Below, piece after piece: positions 4,183 to 5,551 of a DNA stretch of 6,062 nt. The translations under genes were made by a program, and so were the position numbers. Position 1 is the first letter of the stretch. Every line of letters begins with the position of its first letter. This stretch comes from an uncultured Bacteroidales bacterium (lineage in GTDB: Bacteria > Bacteroidota > Bacteroidia > Bacteroidales > Bacteroidaceae): NCBI GenBank assembly GCA_902768605.1, contig CACXLY010000106.1, forward strand, positions 1 through 6,062, in the 5' to 3' direction. A model generated the notes under the pieces. It searched no databases and had not been told where the DNA came from. It was given only the letters and a program-made list of their open reading frames with translations.

Positions 4183-4301
4183 AGCCCCCTCCCCGCTCCC
4201 CCTTTGGGGGAGTGCTGTTAAAGGCAATAAGTAAAATGAAAGAAAAATTAATACATGATGGTTCTGAGGCACTCCCCCAAAGGGGGAGCGGGGAGGGGGC
4301 T
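4183..4301. repeat. Palindromic element A: perfect 33-bp inverted repeats spanning the map-tsaD junction
   Basis: Positions 4183-4215 are the exact reverse complement of 4269-4301 (33 of 33), separated by a 53-bp AT-rich spacer. Each arm also holds its own hairpin: CTCCCCC-TTT-GGGGGAG at 4196-4212 and CTCCCCC-AAA-GGGGGAG at 4272-4288. The element starts 1 nt after the map stop codon. The spacer holds the best tsaD start codon (ATG 4236), and the right arm is translated as ALPQRGSGEGAG. No transposase is present and I see no clear target-site duplication, so it resembles a non-autonomous MITE- or REP-like repeat. No U-tract follows either hairpin, so it is not an obvious terminator. Confidence 0.93.
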
Positions 4302-5474
4302 GGCCCTACCTTTATCCTCGGCATCGAATCCAGTTGCGACGACACCTCAGCGGCTGTCCTTCGCGACGGCTTTCTCTTGAGCAACGTGACGGCCAGCCAG
4401 GCTGTGCATGAGGCTTATGGTGGCGTGGTGCCCGAGTTGGCGAGCCGTGCCCATCAGCAGAACATTGTGCCCGTGGTGGACGCTGCCTTGAAGCAGGCTG
4501 GCATCGAACGCGAGCAGTTGAGCGCAATCGCCTTCACGCGAGGTCCCGGACTGCTGGGCTCCCTGCTTGTCGGCGTGTCTTTTGCCAAAGGACTGGCCGC
4601 CTCGCTCGGCATCCCCATGATTGACGTCAACCACCTTCACGGCCACGTCTTGGCACATTTCATAAGAGAGGAGACCCCCTCTGACTCCCCCTTAAAGGGG
4701 GAGGACACAGGGCAGAAAGTCTCCCCTTTAAGGGGAGATTTAGAGGGGTCTGCTCCCTCCTTCCCCTTCTCTGACTCTCCCTTAAAGGGGGAGGACACAG
4801 GGCAGAAAGTCTCCCCTTTAAGGGGAGATTTAGAGGGGTCTGTTCCCTCCTTCCCCTTCCTCTGCCTTTTGGTGAGCGGCGGCAACAGCCAGATTGTCCT
4901 CGTCAAGAGCTACAAGGACATGGAAATCATCGGGCAGACCATCGACGATGCTGCGGGCGAGGCCATCGACAAGTGCTCGAAAGTGATGGGGCTGGGCTAT
5001 CCGGGAGGTCCGATTATCGACAAACTCGCGCGTCAAGGCAACCCCGATGCGTTCACCTTCTCCAAACCCAACATCCCGGGCTACGACTACAGCTTCAGCG
5101 GACTGAAGACGAGCTTCCTCTACAACCTTCGCGACTGGATAAAGGACGACCCCGACTTCATCGAACATCATAAAGAGGACCTTGCCGCCTCGCTCGAAAA
5201 GACCATCGTCGATATCCTGATGAAGAAGCTCCGGCTTGCTGCCCGCGACTTGAAGATACGGCAAGTGGCTGTGGCAGGAGGTGTCTCAGCCAATACGGGA
5301 CTCCGTAACGCTTTCCACGACTATGCCCGTCGCTATGGCTGGAAGATTTTCATTCCGCGCTTCAGCTACACCACCGACAACGCCGCCATGATAGCCATCG
5401 CAGGCTACTTCAAGTACCTTGACAAGGACTTCTGCCCCATGTCAGCCCCCGCCTACAGCCGCATCGCTACATAA
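4236..5474 (+). CDS. tsaD: tRNA N6-adenosine threonylcarbamoyltransferase with repeat-derived N-terminal and internal extensions
   Basis: TsaD transfers the threonylcarbamoyl group from TC-AMP to A37 of tRNAs decoding ANN codons, working with TsaB and TsaE in the cytoplasm, and is essential in most bacteria. Motifs, numbered from ATG 4236: ILGIESSCDDTS (27-38), GPGLLGSLLVG (103-113), metal site H133-x3-H137, VSGGN (213-217), GYPGGP (254-259), SFSGLKTSF (286-294), AVAGGVSAN (345-353) and TTDNAAMIA (379-387) with ligand D381. Length is 412 residues against ~340 for the family. The excess is ~24 N-terminal residues from element A plus ~50 residues at 147-204 from element B and its duplication. 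All motifs are intact and in frame, so I infer it is functional. The ATG at 4236 is preferred; a GTG at 4212 is in frame, and no start codon lies just before the conserved core. The operon probably includes map; a terminator follows at 5498-5529. Confidence 0.96.
   Translation: MKEKLIHDGSEALPQRGSGEGAGPTFILGIESSCDDTSAAVLRDGFLLSNVTASQAVHEAYGGVVPELASRAHQQNIVPVVDAALKQAGIEREQLSAIAFTRGPGLLGSLLVGVSFAKGLAASLGIPMIDVNHLHGHVLAHFIREETPSDSPLKGEDTGQKVSPLRGDLEGSAPSFPFSDSPLKGEDTGQKVSPLRGDLEGSVPSFPFLCLLVSGGNSQIVLVKSYKDMEIIGQTIDDAAGEAIDKCSKVMGLGYPGGPIIDKLARQGNPDAFTFSKPNIPGYDYSFSGLKTSFLYNLRDWIKDDPDFIEHHKEDLAASLEKTIVDILMKKLRLAARDLKIRQVAVAGGVSANTGLRNAFHDYARRYGWKIFIPRFSYTTDNAAMIAIAGYFKYLDKDFCPMSAPAYSRIAT
4672..4751. 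repeat. Palindromic element B inserted in frame inside tsaD
   Basis: An 80-bp element has imperfect terminal inverted repeats of 26 bp (4672-4697 against the reverse complement of 4726-4751; both begin AGACCCC and end TTAAAG). It contains two internal palindromes: CTCCCCCTT-A-AAGGGGGAG (4685-4703) and CTCCCCTT-T-AAGGGGAG (4721-4737). Its left arm resembles the element A arm (AGCCCCCTCCCC then CTCCCCC). It is read without a stop as SPLKGEDTGQKVSPLRGDLE. No clear target-site duplication is seen. Confidence 0.85.
4681..4860 (+). repeat. 90-bp in-frame tandem duplication within tsaD
   Basis: Copies 4681-4770 and 4771-4860 are identical at 87 of 90 positions; differences are at 4688/4778, 4753/4843 and 4770/4860. 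Each encodes 30 residues (149-178 and 179-208) differing only at A173/V203. Each unit holds most of element B plus about 19 bp of following sequence encoding PSFPF, part of which looks like the native lead-in to LCLLVSGGN. The order suggested is insertion of the element first, then duplication. Confidence 0.95.
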
Positions 5475-5497: not shown

Positions 5498-5529
5498 GGG
5501 GGAGTGCCATTTCGTATTGACACTCCCCC
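5498..5529. terminator. Hairpin terminator between convergent tsaD and nqrF
   Basis: GGGGGAGTG (5498-5506) pairs perfectly with CACTCCCCC (5521-5529) around a 14-nt loop. On the plus strand the stem is followed by CTTATTTAT. On the minus strand it is followed by a short T-run (TTTTGTATGT) and then further Ts. It can therefore serve both genes. The arm sequence GGGGGAGTGC is identical to part of element A, which suggests a shared repeat origin. Confidence 0.75.
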
Positions 5530-5551
5530 CTTATTTATGTGTGGCGGTGAG

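Follow-up and report, generated by a model that had tools for sequence, protein, structure and literature searches.

How a gene for a conserved enzyme can gain about 50 codons and keep its reading frame is the question raised by the tsaD gene of an uncultured Bacteroidales bacterium, which lies in a stretch of 6,062 nucleotides analysed here (the window; Table 1). The product is identified as TsaD by its profile match (TIGR03723, above cut-off in two stretches, 384 bits), and the gene is flanked upstream by that of a type I methionyl aminopeptidase and downstream by a partial NqrF-like gene on the other strand. As an earlier note on this DNA had claimed, the frame is open throughout, and the gain of about 50 residues that it estimated is 51 when measured: the loop has 62 residues in the window versus 11 in 54/74 parsed TsaDs. 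The surface loop proposed there is indeed a loop with an insert, and its exposure is backed only indirectly, by an AlphaFold2 model in which residues 146–200 (pLDDT <50) form a low-confidence, disordered loop. The element is also open on the opposite strand, as had been stated, in an antisense ORF of 89 aa with SPLKGE-type peptides (4637–4906, minus strand). Because each of the 16 genomes that carry an inserted tsaD has exactly one TsaD locus over the cut-off (16/16), the inserted tsaD is probably a working gene.

Table 1. Coordinates of the tsaD gene and of the repeat elements within and around it (positions of the window).
Feature	Position	Strand	Description
Family B element	4183–4301	none	Two perfect 33-nt inverted arms around a 53-nt spacer with the start codon at 4236
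tsaD, host gene of the insertions	4236–5474	+	412 aa; HxxxH at residues 133–137, VSGGN at residues 213–217
Whole TsaD loop segment, HFI to FPFLCLLVSGG	4665–4850	+	62 codons versus 11 in the common native loop
Family A palindromic element, complete copy	4672–4751	+	80 bp, ends AGACCCC..GGGGTCT, in frame as TPSDSPLKGEDTGQKVSPLRGDLEGS
Left inner palindrome CTCCCCCTTAAAGGGGGAG	4685–4703	none	Inside the 80-bp element
Right inner palindrome CTCCCCTTTAAGGGGAG	4721–4737	none	Inside the 80-bp element
First 90-bp tandem unit	4679–4768	+	Element from its 8th base plus native PSFPF codons
Second 90-bp tandem unit	4769–4858	+	5′-truncated element (about 4769–4841), without its first 7 bp

The insert contains a palindromic element, here called family A, whose 80-bp form with inverted ends lies between the HxxxH and VSGGN motifs as first described. 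The complete copy forms a single long hairpin when folded (−47.4 kcal/mol, z −4.0), and palindromes matching CTCCCCNTNNAGGGGAG with at most two mismatches, counted on both strands, occur 11 times in the window versus a mean of 0.05 in shuffled sequence (200 shuffles, none reaching 11). The tandem duplication reported in the earlier note is confirmed, with its identity corrected from 87/90 to 88/90; the two units differ by C/T at 4688 and 4753. The second unit contains the native PSFPF codons again but not the initial 7 bp of the element, which places the insertion before the tandem duplication. We directly observe alleles with different copy numbers. One TsaD (P0002, 12 member sequences) equals that of the window minus residues 174–203, exactly 30 residues, and has a single copy, and thus the copy number varies, while another (P0003), from a different contig and with a different, native-type N-terminus, has two units. 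The second copy is therefore not an artefact of one assembly, and these alleles support the earlier description of a peptide-encoding repeat in a loop whose copy number is still changing.

Among relatives, most TsaD loops are short. A genome scan gave 80 tsaD loci, mostly from metagenome-assembled Bacteroidaceae and Prevotellaceae of rumen and gut; six of the 80 were not parsed by motif and were excluded, and the tree holds 75 sequences including that of the window. The loop is shorter than 18 residues in 58/75 and carries an insert in the other 17, and copies of the element are abundant elsewhere in the relatives' genomes, so that the insert is not one shared by all relatives and confined to this gene. 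Of the 120 homologues listed out of 8000 scored in a protein database, 59 carry an insert of at least 18 residues in the loop, and these inserts fall into 33 peptide types by shared 5-mers, and 73/120 of these listed homologues have at least 16 residues before the GIESSCDDT motif. Native and inserted loops are interleaved on the tree, with at least 10 changes, although the counts taken from it (10 and 19) are indicative only because the tree is poorly resolved (8/72 inner branches starred). A hairpin fold z of −2 or lower is found for 11/19 loop inserts of at least 18 residues, the remainder not being clear hairpins. The same loop also holds KEQGARSKEQ-type short-repeat peptides in L001 (6430–6528), P0034 and P0037, and in other species the IspH and TsaD loops that receive these inserts are filled by yet another repeat, read as ..SLFTLHSS.. 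(L199, L201, P0027).

The earlier view of the TsaD insert as a single curious case does not hold, as the insert belongs to a large class in the genomes of relatives. The counts that follow refer to those genomes, and nearly all insert carriers are metagenome-assembled. The 90-bp unit has 35, 50, 58, 53 and 49 BLAST matches in G001, G002, G003, G004 and G005, respectively, with some places matched on both strands. A palindrome pattern is clearly above its reversed control in 16/18 genomes (87 vs 0 in G001, 337 vs 16 in G004), the exceptions being two Bacteroides (0 vs 0 and 2 vs 2). Family A itself is narrow, since its strict right-half pattern occurs in 4/301 genomes sampled from the family.

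For the first 40 copies (the 18 in the G001 listing plus the 20 best of G002 and the two best of G004, with at most 2 kb of context on each side and including seven partial copies), a single ORF spans 39. The gene is sense to the element in 29 and antisense in 10, a bias with p = 0.003 against equal directions; antisense copies, too, are thus read through. Of the 29 sense copies, 26 have the expected computed phase, two (L152 and L156) have the usual peptide in the right half, and one (L132) uses another frame. Against a null of 1/3, which is itself rough, p is 2e-5 for 26/39 and 1e-6 for 28/39. When a copy is called interior if its ORF has at least 120 aa with at least 30 aa on either side of the element, 34/40 are interior versus 16%, 37%, 21% and 27% in four in-silico length models of random insertion. 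Of 19 additional copies taken from G003, G004 and G005, 15 are interior, two are in a short ORF and two in none, which brings the interior family A copies to 49 of the 59 examined; these 59 are top BLAST hits rather than a random sample and include some instances of the same gene in two genomes. Because the in-silico null is free of selection, the in-frame excess is not due to chance and reflects selection or design, between which the comparison does not discriminate.

This excess concerns the frame rather than a preference for genes. When palindromes are picked in G001 without a coding query, 33 of the 50 listed (87 in total) are interior, nine are near an ORF end and eight are outside, which is not above the roughly 80% expected of random sites inside ORFs; thus, what the counts establish is frame keeping by the copies inside genes and not a general preference for genes. 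A second clade likewise has in-frame palindromes, of another family: 11/15 are interior in G014, and for matches to the insert of L038, 12/19 usable ones are interior, or 11/17 places once two both-strand matches are merged (one further locus was too short and was left out). A fixed element length modulo 3 was considered as the cause of frame keeping and rejected, as the 51 measurable copies are distributed as 35 at 2, 15 at 1 and 1 at 0. When the typed consensus is read in six frames, each direction has one frame free of stops and a further one with a single stop.

The host genes were named by Pfam and NCBIfam, and conserved enzymes are prominent among their products. They encode IleS (L127), AlaRS (L143), YidC (L131, and by its flanking peptide the same site in another genome, L139), MutS2 (L122), IspH (L159), PrmA (L145), QueA (L140), TrpF (L125), a Mur-ligase-family protein (L128), a TldD/PmbA-type protein (L123), a glycogen debranching enzyme (L150), glycosidases and outer-membrane proteins, with partial copies in Rho (L136), Fe-superoxide dismutase (L134) and DsbD (L135). 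Two of these hosts allow occupied and empty sites to be compared. In IspH, 23/29 orthologues have the native segment ..KEY-DADxEHK-KQIVIFGK.. or one of similar length, while elements occupy the site in sense in G002 and G026 and antisense in G027, with native codons lost in each; the same spot has a different repeat in G004 and G029 and a short extra stretch in G001. In AlaRS, compared as the query plus nine usable loci of 30 (L171 and L179, with unrelated frames, were excluded), the site between GDW and FVGYD carries the element in sense in G002 and antisense in G029, G007 and G027, other inserts in G030 and G032, and nothing in four. These varied inserts at the same spots indicate that particular loops are targets of the repeats. 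The loops of TsaD, IspH and AlaRS are repeat insertion targets, with different inserts per species and many relatives empty.

Near-full family A copies, found by a loose rule with fixed termini (a strict whole-element regular expression caught only nine), keep the termini RGRCC..GGGTCY in 51/54 cases, and their commonest length is 80 bp (24 copies). The insert of L038, a locus placed elsewhere on the tree, has arms of 25 bp that start with AAGACCC and outer ends as in family A; it has 115, 95, 96 and 74 matches in G016, G014, G009 and G008 and 16 and 21 in G001 and G002, many of them at places matched on both strands. AGACCC..GGGTCT ends are found in L038, L297 and L309 of this other family. 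The likeness of the L038 and family A ends suggests that elements with different bodies have their ends in common. Nesting occurs as well: in two different genes (L157 of G002 and L197 of G027), a family A element contains a small element with CAATTG-type arms. No target-site duplication is seen at IspH, where about seven native codons are lost instead; the insertions are old and clean empty sites few. A simple target-site duplication is thus not supported at IspH, where target bases are lost.

A second palindrome in the window, family B at 4183–4301, was absent from the earlier note. It folds with −85.9 kcal/mol (z −11.1) and its right arm encodes an N-terminal extension of TsaD, EALPQRGSGEGAG. 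The spacer contains the start codon of tsaD. As no ATG, GTG or TTG occurs in frame between it and the conserved ILGIESS, EALPQRGSGEGA is the expected translation of the right arm. A near-identical peptide is found in the TsaD loop of L004 (NEALPQRGSGE), and LPQRGSGEG lies within other ORFs of G001. TsaD of the nearest relative, L001, shares its N-terminal extension with the window but has a different loop insert. Between tsaD and the convergent nqrF-like gene, a terminator-like sequence at 5498–5536 (GGGGGAGTG..CACTCCCCCC, then TTATTT) has arms in common with the 4183–4301 element.

The TsaD insert is very probably one copy of a palindromic repeat that codes for protein and is mobile but non-autonomous. 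Such an element of about 80 bp would have RGACCC..GGGTCY as its inverted ends and, between them, two inner hairpins and a variable spacer; it would enter genes by replacing some target bases, survive where the frame stays open, and then be translated as an extra disordered loop of about 25–30 residues at a tolerated place. In tsaD, one element would have entered the loop that links the HxxxH helix to the VSGGN strand and later been duplicated in tandem with neighbouring codons, leaving one- and two-copy alleles that coexist, while a second family over the start codon (4183–4301) would supply the N-terminal extension. From the pattern of copies and sites, we infer that the elements are mobile and selfish, as the earlier note supposed of its own case; they would be moved by a trans-acting enzyme and be nearly neutral in their hosts, and the insert peptide would be made and kept in the mature protein. 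Neutral tolerance is the simplest account of their persistence, a role for the peptide being less likely.

Could the TsaD loop instead be an old, functional feature of the clade that has diverged in place, with no insertion at all? Inserts are frequent at this one site, as the 59/120 listed homologues attest, and some relatives have a type in common. This reading is nonetheless exceedingly improbable, given that native loops are interleaved with inserted ones (by the at least 10 changes on the poorly resolved tree), the site holds 33 peptide types among the 120 listed homologues, the element recurs in dozens of other genes of relatives, and the type at the N-terminus in the window occurs in the loop of L004. 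The different peptides at one spot also argue against an old shared loop at large. More credit is due to the proposal that the elements are ordinary intergenic palindromes of the REP/BIME type, moved by a RAYT (Y1 transposase), with genic copies as accidental spill-over. They are short hairpins rich in G+C and number in the tens to hundreds, some of them head to head as in BIMEs (4183–4301); 17/50 listed G001 palindromes are not ORF-interior, and Y1_Tnp has a match in 8/18 genomes. However, 10/18 genomes have no such match, including G003 with its 58 element matches; these elements are missing from all four of the best Y1 loci (L164 has a different CTCCC/GGGAG palindrome, the other three none); neither strand of the 80-bp element has a GTAG or CGTC tag; and family A copies that are interior and in frame in 49/59 cases are the opposite of an extragenic element. 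We consider this proposal quite unlikely. A RAYT/Y1 transposase as the mover is unsupported, as Y1 matches do not track the elements, and no element-linked transposase was found among the Y1_Tnp matches of the 18 genomes, Y1_Tnp being the only transposase family covered. Strong Y1 (RAYT-like) loci do occur in some carriers (L161–L164), not flanked by these elements, and other inverted repeats lie near L161 and L164.

Two further alternatives accept the insertions and differ on the fate of the peptide. If the peptide were selected, the elements would have been recruited as adaptive linkers that serve, for example, enzyme stability, localisation or interactions, as the bias to one direction (29/39) and mostly one peptide frame, together with the reuse of the same loops in TsaD, IspH and AlaRS, might suggest. 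Yet very different peptides occupy the same site across species, many relatives have no insert, the predicted structure leaves the insert of the window unstructured, and the frame bias may stem from insertion bias or from stops in other frames, which leaves adaptive recruitment unlikely. The elements might otherwise be absent from the mature protein, with the ribosome bypassing the hairpin or the RNA being processed. Bypassing elements exist in yeast mitochondria, and the hairpins inside these conserved genes are very strong (−47.4 and −85.9 kcal/mol), but frames are open across 39/40 copies, which neither bypass nor splicing would require, and this alternative is very improbable.

When compared to known repeats, the mobile, protein-coding elements proposed here most resemble the Rickettsia palindromic elements (RPEs) and those of Wolbachia, which are described as short palindromes present in many copies and inserted in frame into genes that are unrelated and often of housekeeping function; they encode a conserved peptide, and orthologues may hold different groups at nearly the same position (PMC3767692, PMC10969869, PMC2229807). 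The elements of the window type are likewise multi-copy, form a long stem-loop, are in frame in unrelated genes, whose Pfam names differ from gene to gene, and use shared spots in orthologues. They differ in their hosts, which belong to another phylum (Bacteroidaceae and Prevotellaceae rather than Rickettsiales), in their length of about 80 bp versus the 100–150 bp given for RPEs, and in having C/G-run hairpins with RGACCC ends. For R. conorii, 44 RPEs are reported with nearly half in ORFs (PMC10969869), whereas here one family has 35–58 BLAST matches per genome and 49/59 examined copies are ORF-interior. The two element peptides of the window match none of the families in NCBIfam, which includes TIGR01045 (RPE1), and no RPE model appears for six host proteins among the Pfam and NCBIfam matches listed. 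A genome search with TIGR01045 matched 0/8 genomes, and the control genomes likewise gave no match, so that the search has no positive control. By analogy, our best reading is that these elements may work like RPEs, with no sequence relation seen in a comparison that is incomplete.

Other small repeats share some of these properties. The enterobacterial ERIC and RU elements and the 107-bp form of the Neisseria Correia element are described as small non-autonomous repeats, bounded by terminal inverted repeats, whose sequence can form an in-frame part of a gene; these are reported to be mainly intergenic, whereas the copies examined here are mainly inside conserved genes (PMC2229807, PMC10969869). 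The terminal inverted repeats RGRCC..GGGTCY, kept in most near-full copies, recall MITEs; no target-site duplication is seen at IspH, in old insertions with few clean empty sites. Closer in host, the Porphyromonas BrickBuilt MITE is described as strictly intergenic (PMC10969869), and the Prevotella PINSR as a 188-bp intergenic repeat that lacks terminal inverted repeats and was judged non-coding (PMC4755523); both are multi-copy, lineage-specific repeats of related bacteria, unlike the mainly genic elements here. REPs are described as extragenic 20–40 bp hairpins tagged with GTAG or CGTC and accompanied by a RAYT gene (PMC3733652), and the numerous G+C-rich hairpins reported here, sometimes in inverted pairs, resemble them except in being 80 bp long, untagged, mainly coding in family A and without a consistent Y1 transposase. 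Inverted repeats embedded in protein-coding sequence are also reported from mitochondrial genes of Nematomorpha (PMC6649704), a case from animal mitochondria. We found no report of in-frame palindromic elements in Bacteroidota in the open-licence literature.

In-frame palindromes in housekeeping genes are best known from the obligate intracellular Rickettsia and Wolbachia, and here they are abundant in gut-dwelling Bacteroidota. The question of how repeats spread and how proteins tolerate them thus becomes testable in organisms with abundant genomes. For annotation, N-terminal extensions and apparent linkers in this group (SPLKGE, LPQRGSGEGA, PSLTGGVGGGS) are likely to be repeat-derived. A more far-reaching reading, which we offer tentatively and as less than an even prospect, is that rumen Bacteroidota have an active transposition system with elements effectively designed for translation, in which a trans-acting enzyme recognises RGACCC ends and puts stop-poor palindromes into genes in place of native loop codons. 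Were this so, the proteome, essential enzymes included, would be continually remodelled on a scale beyond that in Rickettsia, and these genomes would hold a living record of the gain and loss of enzyme loops.

Elsewhere in the window, no Rfam family reaches its gathering score. A 42-nt inverted repeat (81% complementary) with CCTTTTCA-type units lies at 821–956, across the start of the gene at 862–2190, and encodes the hydrophobic part of that gene's apparent signal peptide (FSPFHLFTFAQ); it is perhaps a further repeat family, here supplying a signal sequence.
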